Positions 54,707 through 64,000 of a DNA stretch of 64,000 nt are shown here, piece after piece; the stretch's first letter is position 1; the number at the start of each line of letters is the position of its first letter. The DNA comes from Acholeplasma granularum ATCC 19168 (GTDB lineage Bacteria; Bacillota_I; Bacilli_A; Acholeplasmatales; Acholeplasmataceae), in the NCBI RefSeq assembly GCF_000526235.1, contig NZ_JAFR01000009.1:1-64000 (forward strand). Reading direction: 5' to 3'. The translations under genes were made by a program, and so were the position numbers. The notes beneath the pieces are model-generated. The model made no database searches. It was not told where the DNA came from and worked only from the letters and a program-made list of their open reading frames with translations.

Positions 54707-55930
54707 ATGTTTATACATACAAAATATTTACAAAATCAAATTAGACTTAGGAAGCATTTACCCAGATATACAACTGATAATATAGGTTCAATGCTAAAAC
54801 ATCATCGGTTAAAGTTAAGTTTAACACTAGAAGAAGGGGCAGAAAACATTTGTAGTATAAGCTATTTATCTAAAGTTGAAAACAATTTAATTAGACCATC
54901 AGATAAATATCTACTACAGTTTCAAGAAAAATATAATATAGACTTATCACTGGATAAAAGTAAATCAGATACACTAATGGATGATATGATTGAAGTACTT
55001 TTTTATAATACATCTAATTTAATGGATGAAACACAATTCAAAGCATTTGATTATTACAGTAAACTTTGTTATTTTGGATACTTAGTTTCTATAAAAAATT
55101 TTAAACAAGCTAAAAAAGAATACTTTAAATTAAATCCATATATTAAGAATTTTAATAACGTAGAATTAATGTTTTATTTATATTTAACTAGTCAAATATT
55201 AATTAATGATGGCAGAATTAAAGATGCATTTGAAACACTTCAAATGTCAAAAGATAAATATGATCATAACAAATTAAGTATTTTAATTAAGTCTCAATTA
55301 ATTAAATTAGCATGTATGATGAATCACCATACATATATTATTCTAAATTATGAAAAATTAAGAAAATCACTCATTAATGATGAACATTACCATATTACCC
55401 ATGATATTAAATATATGTATCTACTATATTTCTTACCATTTTTAACGTTTGATCAATTAGTTGAAAAACTAGAAAACTCAAGACATTTTGAAAAACATCA
55501 AGAAGACTTCTTAAAGGCGAAACATCATTATTTAAATATGAAATATGATGAGGCTTATCAAATTTTAAAGGATAAAGAAACTCATGATATATTATATTTT
55601 GAGCTTTCACTATTCACTTTAAATAAATTAAGAAATCATAGATCTTTAGAAAAGTTACTTAAAAATCATCCAGTAAATATAAATATAAATTTAGAGGTGA
55701 TAATAAAATACTTAGAAAGTAAATATTATAATAAAGATCATGAAGGACCCAACTTTATAAAAAATCAAGTATTAAAAACACATGATATTCCTGACAGATT
55801 AGATTACTTAATGTTTTGGTATGAAGAAGGCAATGAAACATTTACCCAACAAGGCTTTTATAAGGATGCAACAACACTCAATCAACTAGCTTTTAGAAAA
55901 ATGATGGATGTAATGACTATTTTAAGTTAA
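54707..55930 (+). CDS. XRE-type HTH regulator with long helical C-terminal domain
   Basis: A 407-residue protein. Residues about 24-80 form a Cro/CI-type HTH (IGSMLKHHRLKLSLTLEEGAENI, then SISYLSKVENNLIRPS). The remaining 320 residues are helix-rich in TPR-like pairs, the layout of Rgg/PlcR-type (RRNPP) peptide-sensing regulators, though no specific family could be assigned. It has its own -10 (TATAAT near 54669) and ribosome binding site (AAAGGGG). It lies directly upstream of a leader peptide and an ABC exporter and is the obvious candidate regulator. Confidence 0.75.
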   Translation: MFIHTKYLQNQIRLRKHLPRYTTDNIGSMLKHHRLKLSLTLEEGAENICSISYLSKVENNLIRPSDKYLLQFQEKYNIDLSLDKSKSDTLMDDMIEVLFYNTSNLMDETQFKAFDYYSKLCYFGYLVSIKNFKQAKKEYFKLNPYIKNFNNVELMFYLYLTSQILINDGRIKDAFETLQMSKDKYDHNKLSILIKSQLIKLACMMNHHTYIILNYEKLRKSLINDEHYHITHDIKYMYLLYFLPFLTFDQLVEKLENSRHFEKHQEDFLKAKHHYLNMKYDEAYQILKDKETHDILYFELSLFTLNKLRNHRSLEKLLKNHPVNININLEVIIKYLESKYYNKDHEGPNFIKNQVLKTHDIPDRLDYLMFWYEEGNETFTQQGFYKDATTLNQLAFRKMMDVMTILS

Positions 55931-55943
55931 ATTAAAAAAACTG

Positions 55944-55952
55944 TGATACAAT
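55944..55952 (+). promoter_or_regulatory. Extended -10 promoter of the ABC exporter leader
   Basis: TGA-TACAAT, predicted start near 55959, giving a leader of about 230 nt. Confidence 0.55.
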
Positions 55953-56003
55953 ATTAAGGATTAGAAAAATAATATATTTTTTAAAATGAAGAAGGAGGTA
56001 AAA

Positions 56004-56060
56004 ATGAAATCTACAAAAAACCACCATTTCATTATAGATCGAGGTATCATAATTACTTAG
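56004..56060 (+). CDS. Leader peptide upstream of the ABC exporter
   Basis: An 18-codon frame, MKSTKNHHFIIDRGIIIT then TAG, behind a near-perfect Shine-Dalgarno (GAAGGAGG at 55990-55997). An in-frame ATG at 55986 would overlap the ribosome binding site. Five of the last nine residues are Ile. The stop is 8 nt before the first arm of a four-segment RNA switch, a position at which a stalled ribosome would cover that arm. A second idea, that it is a signal peptide for the adjacent HTH regulator, is less supported: there is no secretion signal. Confidence 0.7.
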   Translation: MKSTKNHHFIIDRGIIIT

Positions 56061-56068
56061 AAACTATA

Positions 56069-56160
56069 ATGAAGGCAATTTTTATTTATTATGCCCTTCA
56101 TCTATTTAAGCATATTTTTATATGTAATTTATAAGAGGGCATATGCCCTCTTTTTCTTTT
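56069..56160 (+). promoter_or_regulatory. Candidate four-segment transcription attenuator
   Basis: Segment A ATGAAGG..CA (56069-56077) pairs with B TG..CCTTCAT (56092-56101). B as TATGCCCTT (56090-56098) also pairs with C GAGGGCATA (56135-56143). C as AGAGGGCA (56134-56141) pairs with D TGCCCTCT (56144-56151), a terminator with T-rich tail. A:B allows C:D (off); covering A by a stalled ribosome allows B:C (on). The logic mirrors the attenuator described for Bacillus bmrB-bmrCD. Confidence 0.78.
56134..56160 (+). terminator. Attenuator terminator ahead of the ABC exporter
   Basis: AGAGGGCA and TGCCCTCT form an 8-bp stem around TA, followed by TTTTTCTTTT. It lies 27 bp before the first exporter gene. 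Confidence 0.9.
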
Positions 56161-56186
56161 AAAATTAACAGTTTAGGAGAACTTTC

Positions 56187-58019
56187 ATGAAATTTATATC
56201 ACTAATGAAACTAGCTAAAGGCCATATATGGGGCTATATCGTACTCATATTATTAACCATTTTTCATAGGTTCACATATTCTTATGTACCACTATTTACT
56301 CAGTATTTAATTCGAACACTATATGTAGAATTAGATCCATTAAATCCTAATATAAAACCAGTTAATTTACCTAAAGTGGTAACTAATTTTTTTGATTCAG
56401 GAAGTAATGTAATAGAAATTATATTATTGATTGCAATATCACTTGTATTTTTCCAAGCAATTAGATATTTAATGATGTATTTTGAATTATATTTAAGAGG
56501 TAAAATTCAAGAAAATATTGCTAAAAACTTAAGAGTTAGGTTATATGATCATATTCAAAACTTAAGTTACAAATATCATAACAATTCAGATAGTGGGGAC
56601 TTGATACAAAGAGTCACATCAGATGTTGAAACCACTACAGGATTTATCGTTTTACAAATGATGCAACTTGTTGGTCTTGTTTCATCTTTACTGAGTGGTG
56701 TATTCCAAATGTATTATATTAATACAACAATTATGTGGGTTTGTTTGGCAGTTATACCATTATATGCAATCTCATCAATTTTCTATTTTATGAAGATTGA
56801 AAAGATATTTGAGAAAGTTGAACATGATGAATCTGAAATGATGACAACTATTCAAGAAAATATATCTGCATCTAAAGTTGTTAAAGCTTTTGCTAATGAA
56901 CCTTTTGAAATTGAAAAAATGGAAGAAAAAAACCTACAATTTACAAACAGTAATATTAGAGCAAACAAAGTAGTCGCATTTTATTGGGGAAGCATGGATT
57001 TTGTATCAATGACTCAGTATGCACTTGTAACGGTATTAGCGATTTCCTTTGTTCGAAATGGAACGATGGACGGTGCTAGTTTTGTAGCATCACTCATGCT
57101 TATTGGACTTCTTGTGTGGCCAATAAGAGGACTAGGTAGACTTATTAATGAATTTACAAAAGCATTTGTTGCAATTGGAAGAATTAATCATATTTTTGAA
57201 GAAAAACAAGAATATGAAGTTGATGGTACATTAGAACCTGAAATCAAAGGACATATTATATTTAACAATGTAAGTTTTAAATTTGATGATGACCAAAACT
57301 ATTTACTAAAAGACGTTAATTTTGAAATATTACCCGGACAAACGGTTGCATTTATTGGAAAAACAGGTAGTGGTAAAACAACTATTATTAATTTACTTAT
57401 GCGTATGTATCCTTATGAAGGTTCCATTACGATTGATGGTACCGAGTTAAGTGATATTAAAAAGCAACACATTAGAAAAGCAATTGGTGCTGTCTTACAA
57501 GATCCGTTTTTATATTCAAGAAGTGTATATGAAAATATAGCCATTACAAATAGACAAGCAAGTAAAGATAAAATTATTAGTGCAGCTCAAACAGCAGCAC
57601 TAGATAATGATATCCATACATTTAAAAAAGGTTATGAAACGATGGTTGGTGAAAAAGGTACAACACTATCTGGCGGACAAAAGCAAAGGGTTGCTATTGC
57701 TCGTGTGTTAATTAGTGAAAAACCAATTCTTATTTTTGATGATGCACTATCAGCAGTTGACAATAAAACAGATATGATGATTCGAAGTGCTTTATATGAA
57801 AAGTCAAACCAATCAACTAATATTATTGTTACACACAGAATAACAACAGCTAAAGAAGCTGACCGTATTATTGTAATTAATAATGGTATGATTGAAGCAA
57901 TTGGAACACATAAGGAATTATCTACTAAAGATGGGCTATATAAAAAGTTATGGGGTATACAAGGAAAACTAGAAGAAGAATTCCTAAACTTAGTAAAGGA
58001 GGAGAAACACCATGCATGA
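56187..58019 (+). CDS. ABC exporter half-transporter, degenerate-site subunit (BmrC/YheI-like)
   Basis: A 610-residue fusion of a six-helix export domain (residues 15-330) and an ATPase domain. Walker A is GKTGSGKTT, the signature LSGGQKQRVAIARV is canonical, but Walker B reads PILIFDDALSAVD with Asp where the catalytic Glu normally is. This is the pattern of the degenerate-site subunit of heterodimeric multidrug exporters. Ribosome binding site AGGAGA. It overlaps its partner by 8 bp and sits behind the candidate attenuator. Confidence 0.92.
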   Translation: MKFISLMKLAKGHIWGYIVLILLTIFHRFTYSYVPLFTQYLIRTLYVELDPLNPNIKPVNLPKVVTNFFDSGSNVIEIILLIAISLVFFQAIRYLMMYFELYLRGKIQENIAKNLRVRLYDHIQNLSYKYHNNSDSGDLIQRVTSDVETTTGFIVLQMMQLVGLVSSLLSGVFQMYYINTTIMWVCLAVIPLYAISSIFYFMKIEKIFEKVEHDESEMMTTIQENISASKVVKAFANEPFEIEKMEEKNLQFTNSNIRANKVVAFYWGSMDFVSMTQYALVTVLAISFVRNGTMDGASFVASLMLIGLLVWPIRGLGRLINEFTKAFVAIGRINHIFEEKQEYEVDGTLEPEIKGHIIFNNVSFKFDDDQNYLLKDVNFEILPGQTVAFIGKTGSGKTTIINLLMRMYPYEGSITIDGTELSDIKKQHIRKAIGAVLQDPFLYSRSVYENIAITNRQASKDKIISAAQTAALDNDIHTFKKGYETMVGEKGTTLSGGQKQRVAIARVLISEKPILIFDDALSAVDNKTDMMIRSALYEKSNQSTNIIVTHRITTAKEADRIIVINNGMIEAIGTHKELSTKDGLYKKLWGIQGKLEEEFLNLVKEEKHHA

Positions 58020-59835
58020 TCAAGATCAAGAAAATGAGTTAAAGAAAGTTTCACTTCCGGTTTGGGGAAAACTCTTTAAAGTAATTTTAAAAAATAAAAA
58101 ATCTTTTTACACAATGATAGGATTTGGTGTATTTGTAGCAGCACTTGATGCACTAACTATTGTTGTACAACAATATGCACTTGATGAATTTATTACAAAT
58201 AATAATTATGAGCATTTTACAATTTACACAATATTAAATGTTTTAATTGCACTAGGTTTTGGTATTGGTGTGTGGGGCTTTATATATCATGGTGGAAAAA
58301 TTGAGGCGAATGTAAACTATAATTTAAGGAAAGAAGCATTCAAAACACTACAAAGACTACCATTTTCATATTATGATAAAACCCCTCAAGGCTGGATTAT
58401 GGCACGTATGACTAGTGACTCCAAAAGACTTGCCAATATTATTTCTTGGGGTATTGTTGATGTAATTTGGTCTGTTTTATTAATGATCTTCACATTAATT
58501 GTCCTATACTTTTACTATTGGAAATTAGCTATAATTGTTACACTTGCAATACCTATGATGTTATTAGTTACTGTATTATTTAGAAAAAAAGTATTACTTA
58601 GACATCGTCAAGCAAGACACTATAACAGCGAGATTACAGCAAAATATTCTGAAAGTTTCCACGGAGCTAAAACCTCTAAATCCCTTGTAATTGAAACTGA
58701 AAACTTATATGAATTTAATCAGGTTGCAGATAAAATGTATAAAGCAAGTGTAAGAGCAAACGGCTTATCAGCAATGTATTCTGCAGTTTTATTACTTGCA
58801 TGTTACATATTTGTTGCGGTTGTTATGTATACTGGAACACACTTTACACTAAGTGGTGCAATTGCGATTGGTGTATTATATTTATTTATACGTTCAACTA
58901 TAAGTTTCTTTGATCCAATTATTAACCTTTCAAATTTCATATCACAACTTCAACAAGCACAAGCAAGTGCTGAACGTATAATCGAATTAATAGAAACAGA
59001 ATCAACGATTAAAGATAATGAAGAAGTAACTAAAATATACGGAGACTGGTTTAATAAAAAGAAAGAAAACTGGGAAGATTTAAAAGGTGATATAGAGTTT
59101 AAAGATGTGACATTCTACTATAATGAAAACGAAATAATTTTAGATAATTTCAATTTAAAAATTAAAGCAGGTATGAGTGTAGCACTAGTAGGGCATACAG
59201 GAAGTGGTAAAACAACAATTGTAAACCTAACATCAAGATTTTATGAACCCATTTCAGGAAATATATTACTTGATGGTAAAGATTACAGAACAAGAAGTAT
59301 CTCATGGCTTCATGAAAAACTAGGATATGTACTACAATCTCCACATCTATTTTCTACAAACATATTAGAAAATATTAGATATGGTAGATTAGATGCTACA
59401 GATGAAGAAGTCATAAATGCAAGTAAAGCAATCGGCCTACACCCATTTGTTGAGAAGCTAGAAAATGGTTATTTAACAAATGTTGGTGAAGGTGGTAATT
59501 TATTATCCATGGGACAAAAACAACTGATATCTTTTGCTCGTGCAATTCTTGCACAACCTAAAATACTTATTTTAGATGAGGCAACATCATCAATTGATAG
59601 TGAGGCTGAATCACTTATTCAAAATGCTACCAAATCTTTACTAAATGGACGTACAAGCTTAATAGTTGCTCACCGTTTATCAACGATCGTTGAATCAGAT
59701 TTAATTGTCATGTTAGATGGCGGTAAAATCACTGAAATGGGAACGCATAAAGAGTTATTAGAAAAGCGTGGCGCATATTTTGAACTCTATAAAAATCAGT
59801 TCCTAGAAGAAAAATCTAAAGAATTTAATTTTTAA
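58012..59835 (+). CDS. ABC exporter half-transporter, catalytic subunit (BmrD/YheH-like)
   Basis: A 607-residue partner. Six membrane helices in residues 20-325, then the ATPase: Walker A GHTGSGKTT, Walker B KILILDEATSSID with catalytic Glu intact, but a changed signature (LLSMGQKQLISFARA instead of LSGGQ). The degenerate signature here complements the degenerate Walker B of the first subunit, so together they form one active and one inactive ATP site. Lipid, drug or peptide export are all possible. Ribosome binding site AAAGGAGGAG. Confidence 0.92.
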   Translation: MHDQDQENELKKVSLPVWGKLFKVILKNKKSFYTMIGFGVFVAALDALTIVVQQYALDEFITNNNYEHFTIYTILNVLIALGFGIGVWGFIYHGGKIEANVNYNLRKEAFKTLQRLPFSYYDKTPQGWIMARMTSDSKRLANIISWGIVDVIWSVLLMIFTLIVLYFYYWKLAIIVTLAIPMMLLVTVLFRKKVLLRHRQARHYNSEITAKYSESFHGAKTSKSLVIETENLYEFNQVADKMYKASVRANGLSAMYSAVLLLACYIFVAVVMYTGTHFTLSGAIAIGVLYLFIRSTISFFDPIINLSNFISQLQQAQASAERIIELIETESTIKDNEEVTKIYGDWFNKKKENWEDLKGDIEFKDVTFYYNENEIILDNFNLKIKAGMSVALVGHTGSGKTTIVNLTSRFYEPISGNILLDGKDYRTRSISWLHEKLGYVLQSPHLFSTNILENIRYGRLDATDEEVINASKAIGLHPFVEKLENGYLTNVGEGGNLLSMGQKQLISFARAILAQPKILILDEATSSIDSEAESLIQNATKSLLNGRTSLIVAHRLSTIVESDLIVMLDGGKITEMGTHKELLEKRGAYFELYKNQFLEEKSKEFNF

Positions 59836-59850
59836 TATAAAATAAAAGTT

Positions 59851-59905
59851 AAAAGACAACATCAAACCTACTATATGTATGAGGTGATAAGATGTTGTCT
59901 TTTTT
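59851..59905 (+). terminator. Terminator containing the start codon of the next gene
   Basis: AAAAGACAACATC (59851-59863) and GATGTTGTCTTTT (59891-59903) form a perfect 13-bp stem with T tail. The 27-base loop holds the ribosome binding site GAGGTGAT and the right arm holds the ATG (59892) of the following gene. Confidence 0.85.
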
Positions 59906-61958
59906 AAATTTATTAATGAATGTTGCAATCATATGGACAAACGAAGTAGTAAATATTCCCTTAGGGGAATCTTTAGAAGATTATAAGAACCTACCACAGG
60001 CAAGTATTTATCTAGATAATAAGTTAGCAAATGATAGATTAATGTTCTATGAATATGAAATTAATTATACATCGTTTAGTGTCATAAGAACGAATGTGAT
60101 AGGAACATATACTGTTTGGTACAGGGCTCATTTTCCAAGTTTAGGATTTGAAAGTGATGTGCCCATTTCATTTGTTGTATATGACAATTTAGCTCCTGAA
60201 ATAATAGGTGAACCTATGATAGAAGTTGATGTAGGAACTAAACAATTAGATTATAAATCACTCATTACTTATAAAGATAATTATGATAGTTTTAAGGATT
60301 TAAATCTATCAATTCATTCATCCAACGTTCAATTATCTAGTGTTGGAGAATATGAGGTTTTATATACAGTAACAGATTTGAGTTTAAATCAGGCGAAATT
60401 TATTCAAAAAATACAGGTTGTGGATAAACAAAAACCAATAATTAATCAAAAGATGCAAATAGAACTGAATATGGGTGAAAAAATTGATATAGATAAATAT
60501 TTTACAGTAACAGATAATTATGATAAAGTATTAAATATTAAAATAGATGATCATTTAATAAATTATGATGTTGAAGGAACTTATAGTGCACAAATCATAG
60601 CAAGCGATCAATCAGGAAATGAGACAATTAAAACATTTAATGTCATAATTAAAGATAATAATGCACCCATCATTCACTTAAAAATTAATTTAATTAATAT
60701 AAACTATAAAGATGAAATATCAATTGAAACACTAAAGGGTTACATTTCTAGAGTCGAAGACAATATAGATAATATAAGTATAGATGATGTTAAAATAGAA
60801 AGTTTTATAGAGTCTGATTTTTTAGGAAATTATGAGGTTATATATTCAGTAACTGATTCAAACGGATTAAAAGGAACTGCAAAATTAAATGTTAAAGTAC
60901 TTGATTTAGAACCACCTAAGATTGAGTTGATTAAACCAATTAAAGTAGATGTAAACACACTGGAACCTTATATATATGATTACTTATTAATAACGGATAA
61001 TTATGATGATTATAATCATTTAACAATTACTAAAACAGGCACTATTAATATGAAGGTTGTGGATACTTATAGAATAATAATTAAAGTAAAAGATCAGGCA
61101 AAAAACGAAATTGAATATCCAATATTAGTCGATGTAGTTGATACTATACCACCCATACTAGAGTTTAAAGAAGTGGAAGTCATAACAAATTATTCTAGAC
61201 CTAATTATAATGAACTCATTAAAGTATCTGATAACTATGATAAAACTTTAAACTTAATTATAGACGATAGTCATATTGATTATAGCTTAACAGGACAACA
61301 CCAAATTAAAGTGACAGCAATCGATCAACAAAATAATCAAACAAATAAATATTTAACACTAAAAATAATTGACCAGGACTATCCTGAAATCTTTTTAACT
61401 ACAAGACAAATATATGTACCATATGGCACAGAAGAAATTAATTATCTGGATTATGTTGAAAAAATATATGATTACTATGATAAAACTTTAACACTTGATA
61501 ATCTTAGAATTGAATCCCAAATTAACTTTTCTAAGATAGGACTTTATAAAGTTATTTATAAATTAAAAGATAGTTCAAATAACGAGACATCTGAAATCCT
61601 TTATGTTTATTTAAATGATTATGAACCACCTAATATAAATGTCCAAACAATTATTTTAAATAAAGGAGATGCATTTGATTATAAAAAATATGTTGATGTT
61701 TCTGATAATTATGATAAGGATTTAATTAATCATGTAAAAATGAATCCAACATATTTACCTACAAATATAAATGGACATTATGAAGTCATATTTTATGTAC
61801 ATGATAGTTCTGGCAATTATAGTGAATTGAAAGTTTTAATAACTATTAATGATTCCAAATATGTAATAGATTATATATTTTATATCAGTGGAGCAATTGG
61901 AATAATACTTATTGTCTTAAGCTATTACATTTACCGGAAAAAACATGAAAAATTCTAA
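59892..61958 (+). CDS. Surface protein with seven Ig-like repeats and C-terminal membrane anchor
   Basis: A 688-residue protein. After a short hydrophobic N-terminus come seven repeats of about 80 residues, each with a D-N-Y-D-type motif at residues of roughly 129, 207, 289, 368, 446, 526 and 605, and endings of the form GxYxxxYxVxDxxxN, which fit bacterial Ig-like domains (DUF5011/HYR type). A single membrane helix (about 662-682) and a basic tail (YRKKHEKF) close the protein. Probably an extracellular stalk or adhesin held in the membrane. The start codon lies within the stem of the upstream terminator. Confidence 0.82.
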   Translation: MLSFLNLLMNVAIIWTNEVVNIPLGESLEDYKNLPQASIYLDNKLANDRLMFYEYEINYTSFSVIRTNVIGTYTVWYRAHFPSLGFESDVPISFVVYDNLAPEIIGEPMIEVDVGTKQLDYKSLITYKDNYDSFKDLNLSIHSSNVQLSSVGEYEVLYTVTDLSLNQAKFIQKIQVVDKQKPIINQKMQIELNMGEKIDIDKYFTVTDNYDKVLNIKIDDHLINYDVEGTYSAQIIASDQSGNETIKTFNVIIKDNNAPIIHLKINLININYKDEISIETLKGYISRVEDNIDNISIDDVKIESFIESDFLGNYEVIYSVTDSNGLKGTAKLNVKVLDLEPPKIELIKPIKVDVNTLEPYIYDYLLITDNYDDYNHLTITKTGTINMKVVDTYRIIIKVKDQAKNEIEYPILVDVVDTIPPILEFKEVEVITNYSRPNYNELIKVSDNYDKTLNLIIDDSHIDYSLTGQHQIKVTAIDQQNNQTNKYLTLKIIDQDYPEIFLTTRQIYVPYGTEEINYLDYVEKIYDYYDKTLTLDNLRIESQINFSKIGLYKVIYKLKDSSNNETSEILYVYLNDYEPPNINVQTIILNKGDAFDYKKYVDVSDNYDKDLINHVKMNPTYLPTNINGHYEVIFYVHDSSGNYSELKVLITINDSKYVIDYIFYISGAIGIILIVLSYYIYRKKHEKF

Positions 61959-62012
61959 TATTTTTAGTATAATAAATACAATATAAAATATTTTAGAAAT
62001 GAGAATGAAAAA

Positions 62013-62438
62013 ATGGCTATATTAGTTGTTTATTGGAGTGGCACAGGAAATACCGAAGTTATGGCTCAAAATATTTATGATGGCATTATAGAAGCTGGTG
62101 TTGAATGCGACTTAAAACAAATTGATGAAGTCCTACCAGATGACATTTTAGATTATGATAAAATTGCTATTGGATGCCCATCCATGGGTATTGAAGAATT
62201 AGAACCAGAAGAATTTTTACCTTGGTATGAAGATGTTGAACCACTTTTAGGTGATAAACCATTATTACTCTTTGGCTCTTATGGTTGGGGTGAGGGTGAA
62301 TGGATGGATTATTGGCAAGATAGAGTTAATGATTTAGGTTTAAACCTTTTTGAAGAGGGAATTAAAATAGCTTCAATGCCTTCTAGAAAAGAATCAGAAG
62401 AAATTAAATTAAAAGCAAAAAGATTTGCAGAAATGTAG
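62013..62438 (+). CDS. Flavodoxin
   Basis: A 141-residue FMN-binding electron carrier. The phosphate-binding loop is WSGTGNTEVMAQ (residues 9-20) and flavin-contact loops are CPSMGIEELE and FGSYGWGEGEWMD. Length is normal for short-chain flavodoxins. Its own -10 (TATAAT, 61968-61973) and a terminator make it monocistronic. Confidence 0.94.
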   Translation: MAILVVYWSGTGNTEVMAQNIYDGIIEAGVECDLKQIDEVLPDDILDYDKIAIGCPSMGIEELEPEEFLPWYEDVEPLLGDKPLLLFGSYGWGEGEWMDYWQDRVNDLGLNLFEEGIKIASMPSRKESEEIKLKAKRFAEM

Positions 62439-62441
62439 ATT

Positions 62442-62467
62442 AAAAAGGATCTAAAAAATCCTTTTTT
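62442..62467 (+). terminator. Terminator of the flavodoxin gene
   Basis: AAAAAGGAT and ATCCTTTTT form a 9-bp stem with a 7-base loop and T tail. Confidence 0.85.
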
Positions 62468-62478
62468 ACTAGTTGATG

Positions 62479-62484
62479 TATAAT
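62479..62484 (+). promoter_or_regulatory. -10 element TATAAT of dnaE
   Basis: TATAAT, 25 bp before the predicted TTG start; -35 not clear. Confidence 0.5.
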
Positions 62485-62509
62485 GATATAGAAAGGTAGT
62501 TTAATAAAT

Positions 62510-64000
62510 TTGGTTGGTACATTATATACTCAAAGTGCATATTCAATATTAAAATCCACACTTTCTTTAGAAGTGATTTTTGATAATGCTAAAAATAGTA
62601 ACCATGATTTTGTAGCAATCACTGATTATCATAACCTACATGCACTATATAAGATTTTAGTTTTAAGTAAAGACTATCAAATGAAAATAATTTTAGGCAT
62701 TGAAATGAATTTAATCTTTGAGGATTCAAAAATTAAACTATTAGTTTATGCAAGAAACGACAAAGAACTAGAATATTTAATTAAACTTTCTAGTTATATC
62801 TCAATGGAACCAAAATTAAAGTTAATGGATATTATAGATGAGTTAAATCATTTGGTTGTAGTTATTCCAAATACACAAGTGCTATTTACTCATAATTACA
62901 ATGATGTGACCATCATAGAAAATATGATGATTAAATTAAAGAATATAATAAATAATTTATTTTTAGGCATATCTAACCAATCAGAATTATATGAATTTAA
63001 TATTACTCCACTGACATTTAAAATAGCTAAAAACTTAAAAATAAAATTACTACCGACTTATCAAAATAGTTATTTTAAAAAAAATGATAAAAAATCATAT
63101 GAAATAATTAGAAAAATAGATAATAGTTCATATACCGATGATCATACCAACTTAAATTTTTTATCAAAAGATGAATTGTTAGAACATTATAGAGACTATA
63201 ATTTTGTATTTGATAATTTAAAACAAGTTTTTTCAAATACCAAATACAACTATTTAAATAATCAACAAGAACTACCAAAGTTTCCTACAAAAGATAATGT
63301 TGAAAGCCATATATATTTAAATGCATTATCTACACTAGGACTTAAAAAAAGATTAAAAAATGTTAGTAATAAAGTATATCATGCATATTTAGAACGATTA
63401 AATCATGAACTAAATGTAATTCATCAAATGGGTTATGATGACTATTTTTTAATAGTTTATGATTTTGTAAGATATGCAAAAACAAATGATGTTTTAGTGG
63501 GTCCAGGACGAGGTAGTGCTGCAGGTAGTTTAGTTGCATACTGTTTAGGAATTACAGAAGTTGATCCTTTAGAATATAATCTCTTGTTTGAAAGATTTTT
63601 AAATATTGATCGTAAAACAATGCCCGATATAGATCTAGACTTTCCAGATGATAAAAGAGACTTAGTTATTGAATATGTAAAGAATAAATACGGGAAAAAC
63701 CATGTAGTAACTATATCCACATTTACAAATCTAACAACAAAAACATCCATGCGAGATATTGCTAGACAAATGGGTATGAGTCAATCAAGGATTAATGCAA
63801 TTGTTGCAAGTCATTCAAAAGGAATACTTGATGAAAGTGACCTTGAAGCAATGGAACTTGTAAGAATTGCACAATTAATTGAAGGTATACCAAGACAAAC
63901 AGGCACACATCCGGCAGGTATTATTATTTCTAAAAATGACTTAACAACCCTTATTCCGTTAACAAACGGACCAAAATCAATATTTCAATCGCAGTTTGAA
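62510..64000 (+). CDS. dnaE: DNA polymerase III alpha subunit DnaE, 3' end outside window
   Basis: 497 residues are visible and the frame runs off the window. The polymerase core is clear: LVGPGRGSAAGSLVAYCLGI, and MPDIDLDFPD with the catalytic Asp pair near 63615-63645, then GKNHVVTISTFTNLTTK and RQTGTHPAGIIIS. The start is a TTG at 62510: GAAAGG is 14 bp upstream, no ATG is available after the in-frame stop at 62489. The PHP domain at the N-terminus has lost ligands (LYTQSAYSILKS where active forms have HxHS; TDYHN for TDHGN), so it is probably catalytically inactive. Confidence 0.93.
   Translation, partial: MVGTLYTQSAYSILKSTLSLEVIFDNAKNSNHDFVAITDYHNLHALYKILVLSKDYQMKIILGIEMNLIFEDSKIKLLVYARNDKELEYLIKLSSYISMEPKLKLMDIIDELNHLVVVIPNTQVLFTHNYNDVTIIENMMIKLKNIINNLFLGISNQSELYEFNITPLTFKIAKNLKIKLLPTYQNSYFKKNDKKSYEIIRKIDNSSYTDDHTNLNFLSKDELLEHYRDYNFVFDNLKQVFSNTKYNYLNNQQELPKFPTKDNVESHIYLNALSTLGLKKRLKNVSNKVYHAYLERLNHELNVIHQMGYDDYFLIVYDFVRYAKTNDVLVGPGRGSAAGSLVAYCLGITEVDPLEYNLLFERFLNIDRKTMPDIDLDFPDDKRDLVIEYVKNKYGKNHVVTISTFTNLTTKTSMRDIARQMGMSQSRINAIVASHSKGILDESDLEAMELVRIAQLIEGIPRQTGTHPAGIIISKNDLTTLIPLTNGPKSIFQSQFE

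Follow-up and report, generated by a model that had tools for sequence, protein, structure and literature searches.

The window, i.e. the whole stretch of 64 000 nucleotides of Acholeplasma granularum ATCC 19168 analysed here, contains two ABC transporter genes followed on the same strand by the gene of a putative surface protein. The first ABC exporter gene (56187..58019, +) is an open reading frame in a synteny shared by most related genomes, and the second (58012..59835, +) matches the Pfam families ABC_membrane and ABC_tran. The third gene (59892..61958, +), called the Ig gene below, codes for an Ig-repeat surface protein of 688 aa (Pfam Bact_surface_Ig-like) with a hydrophobic N-terminus and a C-terminal TM segment. 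The ABC stop codon ends at 59835, which leaves a gap of 56 nt before the ATG at 59892. Upstream of the two ABC genes, a further gene (54707-55930) encodes a 407-aa protein whose N-terminal HTH_3 domain precedes a series of helical repeats; judging by this layout, the protein may be a peptide-sensing regulator of the ABC exporter.

The ABC–Ig junction is occupied by a long hairpin. Its left arm, AAAAGACAACATC (59851-59863, +), pairs over 13 bp, all of them Watson–Crick, with the right arm, GATGTTGTCTTTT (59891-59903, +), which holds the ATG (59892-59894) and codons 2-4 of the Ig gene. The right arm ends in a run of six T (59900-59905, +), a predicted terminator U-tract that also encodes N-terminal Phe codons. 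The 27-nt loop carries the Shine–Dalgarno sequence (SD) GAGGTGAT (59881-59888, +), nearly invariant in the alignment of orthologs. Sequence and predicted fold confirm the description given in an earlier note: a 13-bp stem after the ABC operon, whose loop contains the SD and whose right arm contains the ATG. The fold adds an inner helix to that description (59866-59885, +), in which ACCT (59866-59869) and AGGT of the SD (59882-59885) are paired, plus 2 bp; variants of this helix are found in relatives. The junction region folds at -20.4 kcal/mol, against a mean of -8.4 kcal/mol for shuffled sequences (z -4.67; 0/200 shuffles). The hairpin alone (-18.1 kcal/mol, 13 bp, T6) has the stable stem and U-run of an intrinsic terminator, and its loop of 27 nt is longer than the classical 3-8 nt. 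Pattern scanners applied to the window detected neither a terminator nor a promoter, because the loop is long and the motif described below is not of the sigma-A type.

Since a TGA is present at 59880-59882, the Ig gene has no in-frame start codon further upstream. The next in-frame ATG, at 59916, is found in some species only. In the alignment, the conserved start of the orthologs coincides with ATG 59892, and the start is not to be sought well downstream of 59905, a position that the earlier note held would count against its proposal. Among 398 gene starts sampled in 464 kb of the window's genome, that of the Ig gene is the only one with its ATG inside a strong T-tailed stem. The T-run imposes an N-terminus devoid of Lys and Arg (MLSFLNLL.., MSFLLS..; window 59892-59951), whereas in the outgroup family the signal peptide is of the classical MKK type; from these sequences, the start of the Ig protein seems to have been reshaped by the terminator. 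The Ig orthologs of four genomes of one genus (G031, G038, G043 and G044) each contain one in-frame TAG within the matched stretch.

The junction also contains a promoter-like motif, AAAGTYAAA-N15-TACTAT, which ends 6 nt before the SD. It is composed of a -35-like element, AAAGTTAAA (59845-59853, +), whose last three A (59851-59853) are the first left-arm bases of the stem, and of a -10 element, TACTAT (59869-59874, +), 15 nt further on. AAAGT-like and TAnnAT elements recur at fixed spacing in nearly all aligned orthologs, with the -10 element 6-7 nt 5' of the SD. The -35-like element is unlike the TTGACA of A. laidlawii. For that species, PMC5138195 gives a usual distance of 6 nt from the -10 element to the transcription start and a first base G or A; by this rule the predicted start of the Ig transcript is G59881 (+), the first base of the SD.

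Orthologs of the Ig gene are present in 8/8 genomes of the genus, in 48/88 genomes of the family and in five genomes of a second family of the order. An ATG-bearing stem is found in five of the six other genus members whose upstream region is covered, with mostly different arm sequences (left/right: GACAGTATG/CATGCTGTC; GACAGTATG/CATGTTGTC; CGATAACATC/GATGTTATCG; GACAGCA/TGCTGTC; TTTGAAACAT/ATGTTTCAAA), to be compared with GACAACATC/GATGTTGTC in the window. In other genera the right arm is mostly ATGTC(C/T)TTTTT and the left arms are AAAAGGACAT-like. The answer to the question raised in the earlier note, whether stem and ATG position are both conserved, is therefore yes: the ortholog start is ATG 59892, and the stem is family-wide and covarying. 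RNAalifold found no consensus structure in the full mixed alignment, probably because the arm of the window's genus is 3 nt longer than that of other genera, and pair counting with controls was used in its place. Among Ig orthologs from 14 genera of the family, the left arm, which lies outside the coding sequence, tracks the ATG-bearing right arm. Own arms pair at 428 of 470 positions, compared with 371 +/- 5 (maximum 388) for arms swapped in 500 shuffles; two-sided changes occupy 64 cells, compared with 28.9 +/- 5.2 in shuffled arms (0/500) and 16-32 in slid controls, counts that are inflated by the close kinship of the orthologs and do not represent independent events. Judged from the alignment, the stem is not a product of chance.

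The arms are symmetrical about the -10 element, as they would be if the inverted repeat around the promoter were a repressor site in DNA and not an RNA structure. The covariation is hard to reconcile with such an operator: the arm sequences vary between species while their pairing is kept, a common operator sequence is absent, and other genes with the same promoter use a different arm register, with the SD in place of the ATG (see below). G–U pairs, found in one orientation, are tolerated in the stem (e.g. U–G at columns 19/60 in nine sequences), which fits an RNA structure better than a DNA operator. We regard the operator as the least credible of the explanations considered.

We then have to ask what the RNA structure would do to the Ig start. 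Opening costs and pairing probabilities were computed mostly on windows of 70-100 nt, with gene starts called by a simple script. For the window, opening SD and ATG is predicted to cost 14.0 kcal/mol in a read-through RNA and 3.1 kcal/mol in an RNA starting in the loop; the medians for 47 Ig orthologs are 14.9 and 3.5 kcal/mol. The background for 888 genes has a mean of 4.0 and a 99th percentile of 12.9 kcal/mol. The Ig start region in the predicted read-through RNA is harder to open than that of about 98-99% of genes. In the fold of that RNA the ATG has an unpaired probability of at most 0.001, and the inner helix keeps SD bases 59882-59885 largely closed; in an RNA beginning at 59881 the ATG is 52-85% unpaired. 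These computed costs support the suggestion, made in the earlier note, that read-through transcripts have a masked start codon. Its corollary, that translation needs a transcript beginning within the loop, is consistent with the conserved promoter motif there and with a predicted start at the first base of the SD.

Natural variation in the neighbourhood of the Ig gene provides further comparisons. In three loci in which the upstream gene is divergent (L041, L067 and L068), the stem is gone and the promoter motif is kept; the opening costs are 7.0, 2.9 and 5.7 kcal/mol, respectively, against a median of about 15 kcal/mol in 44 same-strand loci (p=0.004). Some same-strand loci (L007, L031, L033, L038 and L063) also have lost the stem or keep a weak one, and the stem is therefore not indispensable. 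In the outgroup family (f4), the same ABC–Ig junction has an ordinary terminator right after the ABC stop codon, followed by a leader of the usual kind and a signal peptide that contains lysine; the merged form is therefore likely to have originated in the ancestor of the window's family. The stem is conserved and covaries across the family and is absent from the three divergent-upstream loci, findings that favour the earlier idea of an element that insulates or switches expression.

In a rival reading, the ABC transcript could be the normal Ig message, with some factor opening the stem in the manner of a regulated attenuator or riboswitch. Both ATG and SD are covered by the stem, and an alternative inner helix exists. 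However, the region 55000-62600 gave no Rfam match at the gathering score, and no aptamer-like sequence is conserved beyond promoter and SD. Moreover, the upstream genes vary between genera while the promoter motif is constant, and the stem vanishes where no upstream transcript enters. A regulated attenuator is thus very improbable as an account of the Ig junction.

The distribution of the promoter motif was analysed with a position matrix built from 18 sites, which was used to scan the complete chromosome of an Acholeplasma (G004; 1,496,992 bp, joined from stretches). The seven best sites (at least 20.6 bits; the next has 17.7) each lie just upstream of a gene: recA, a 206-aa secreted protein, the Ig gene, a ComFC-like gene, radC, comEA (clustered with comEC) and a 326-aa secreted protein. 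Sites below these seven are no commoner than in the reversed sequence. Some training sites came from the same genes, and the scan therefore indicates that there are no other equally good sites; it is not an independent discovery. The independent evidence for a regulon, as far as it can be read from genomes, is the recurrence of the motif in other genera. In the window's own genome the pattern precedes recA, the 206-aa protein gene and a small UvrD-like helicase, with a near match at radC; in six other genera it is found at recA, radC, comEA, the ComFC-like gene and the same secreted proteins. The RadC and ComEA assignments are from NCBIfam. The ComFC-like gene is named after its cysteine-rich start, and the stretch of it submitted to Pfam gave no match. 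ComEC (PF03772) was detected in 3/8 genomes of the genus at E<=0.001.

Two members of this group deserve separate mention. The secreted protein of about 206 aa (sec206; G004 880662-881283, -; L270-L299) is present in 38/47 sampled genomes of the family and has no Pfam or NCBIfam match; it is likely to be a new competence-associated protein. The small UvrD/Rep-like helicase, of 382-384 aa (L128 in G000 and L123 in G007), has the same promoter and a start-masking hairpin.

A candidate for the sigma factor that reads this promoter is encoded between rlmB and rpmG-secE. In the G004 chromosome the gene (132823-133317) codes for 165 aa, and the sigma protein measures 165-171 aa; the order rlmB-sigma-rpmG-secE was established from translations (see also L183-L186, L190, L192 and L193). 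This is the region of the Firmicutes sigH locus, cysS-nusG, as described in PMC3364868. The best specific models for the protein are of the SigH type, although it scores 47.1 bits with TIGR02859, whose cut-off is 294.8, and passes only the general sigma-70 superfamily model. Nearly every non-phytoplasma genome of the family has the gene. The phytoplasma-like g11 genomes listed gave no sigma match, and the Ig gene is also lacking there. The Listeria sigma-H consensus, RMAGGRWWW-N11/12-RRMGAAW (PMC4754846), resembles AAAGTYAAA-N15-TACTAT partly in the -35 element and differs from it in the -10 element and the spacing. A SigH/ComX-like sigma factor probably recognizes the Acholeplasmataceae motif.

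Masked starts are not restricted to the Ig gene. In the G004 chromosome, start-masking terminators are found at four of the seven regulon genes and at nine of 1433 other genes (p=1.4e-7). The strict mask test is failed by recA, the 326-aa secreted protein gene and comFC, the last of which still has an opening cost at the 98th percentile. When genes are chosen across the family by protein homology, without use of the motif, the start is masked (opening cost above the 95th percentile) for radC in 24/28 species, for the 206-aa protein gene in 21/29 and for recA in 0/30. Two registers can be distinguished. In the first, represented by the Ig gene, the right arm bears the ATG, with the T-run downstream of that codon; in the second, the SD is in the right arm and the T-run lies between SD and ATG (most radC genes, comEA of G004 and the Ig gene of genus g4). 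By the recurrence of its motif, the Ig promoter is thus placed in a putative competence/recombination regulon, other members of which are masked likewise, a point that goes beyond the earlier note. In the same chromosome, a gene without the regulon motif (362360-362855) has an SD-masking, T-tailed hairpin (TACCTTCTATCC..GGATAGGAGGTATTTTT ATG).

These overlaps might be explained by compaction only: a 56-nt gap has to accommodate terminator, promoter, SD and start, and masking would then be a by-product without function. Most orthologs indeed have a gap of about 45-57 nt, loci with a divergent upstream gene lack the stem, and at some loci with a separate terminator the ATG stem is weak or absent (G006, where it is weak, and G020). 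Several observations speak against this explanation. In G002, a 10-bp stem that masks the ATG and lacks a T-run persists in spite of a dedicated terminator (GAACTGCCC..GGGCAGTTTTTTTT). More generally, the mask is kept at 18 of 27 regulon starts that already have a separate terminator, and termination alone is therefore no explanation. The recA gene of G004, with the same promoter and a 57-nt gap, has no mask, and comparable overlaps are seldom seen at the other genes of this compact genome (the 9/1433 given above). We consider compaction alone unlikely.

The reading that we prefer, with a probability of roughly 0.7, is that the Ig element is an alternative-sigma competence/recombination promoter nested in a start-masking terminator, and would thus constitute a self-insulated conditional promoter. 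Polymerase arriving from the ABC operon would make the whole stem, and most of its transcripts would stop at the T-run; those that read through would carry a sealed SD and ATG. The Ig gene would consequently be silent outside the conditional state. In that state, the SigH/ComX-like sigma factor would initiate transcription of the Ig gene within the loop, at the SD (about 59881), and the resulting mRNA, being devoid of the left arm, should be translatable. The same guard, in either register, would be placed on radC, comEA, the ComFC-like gene, the small helicase and the 206-aa secreted protein. It would be dispensed with at recA, a gene under the same promoter that ordinary growth requires as well; that recA is consistently unmasked fits the purpose of insulation. 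Extended to the whole family, the proposal is that Acholeplasmataceae have a competence/recombination regulon with alternative-sigma promoters, in which the -35/-10 spacer also serves as the anti-SD or anti-start arm of an often-terminating hairpin, forming a two-level insulator against the read-through of neighbours from which recA is exempt as always needed. This wider proposal appears to us reasonably probable.

Such a design, testable by experiment, would allow a compact genome with few regulators to keep conditional genes silent by means of a promoter inside the hairpin that ends or seals outside transcripts. It would also provide Acholeplasmataceae with a candidate SigH-like competence regulon, none having been described in the literature searched, and a conserved Ig-repeat surface protein of unknown function with a likely setting, namely a state of DNA uptake or recombination. 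The contrast between recA, which is always unmasked, and radC, comEA and sec206, whose starts are usually masked behind the same promoter, makes the function easy to test.

The SigH/ComX regulons of Lactobacillus sakei, Listeria and streptococci share with the putative Acholeplasmataceae regulon a small sigma gene at the sigH locus (PMC3364868), targets in DNA uptake and recombination (here recA, radC, comEA(-comEC) and the ComFC-like gene) and a short distance from promoter to gene. The Listeria sigma-H -35 element begins with AAAGG (PMC4754846), the Acholeplasmataceae motif with AAAGT. The latter differs by its -10 element, TACTAT, and its wider spacing, and the sigma protein is far below the curated SigH scores. 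Masking terminators are not mentioned in the available parts of these two papers on SigH/ComX competence regulons (PMC3364868, PMC4754846).

With an ordinary same-strand intrinsic terminator, the element shares the stem and T-run after the ABC operon; it differs by a 27-nt loop with promoter and SD and by a right arm that bears the start codon of the next gene. The insertion sequences IS10 and IS200 are protected from impinging transcription by a terminator and by a hairpin that sequesters the RBS. Read-through would likewise be silenced at the Ig junction by a terminator and a sequestered start, but the Ig element is no transposon and has its own putative conditional promoter in the loop.

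A close likeness is to bacteriophage T4. In the I-TevI-type arrangement, a hairpin over the RBS silences long upstream transcripts and a second promoter inside the hairpin gives a translatable mRNA (PMC2988022). Late genes and homing endonuclease genes of T4 (e, soc, I-TevI/II/III and segB), as well as mobE of Aeh1, have a late transcript without the 5' arm of the RBS-sequestering hairpin. The Ig arrangement, as deduced from sequence, is similar: predicted fold and opening cost close the RBS and start in the long transcript, and the loop contains a conserved motif from which a transcript without the 5' arm is predicted to start. Unlike its phage counterparts, the Ig-type element is chromosomal, belongs to a bacterial family and is common to several genes of a putative alternative-sigma regulon. 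Its stem is often a predicted intrinsic terminator as well, and in the Ig gene the ATG itself lies in the arm.
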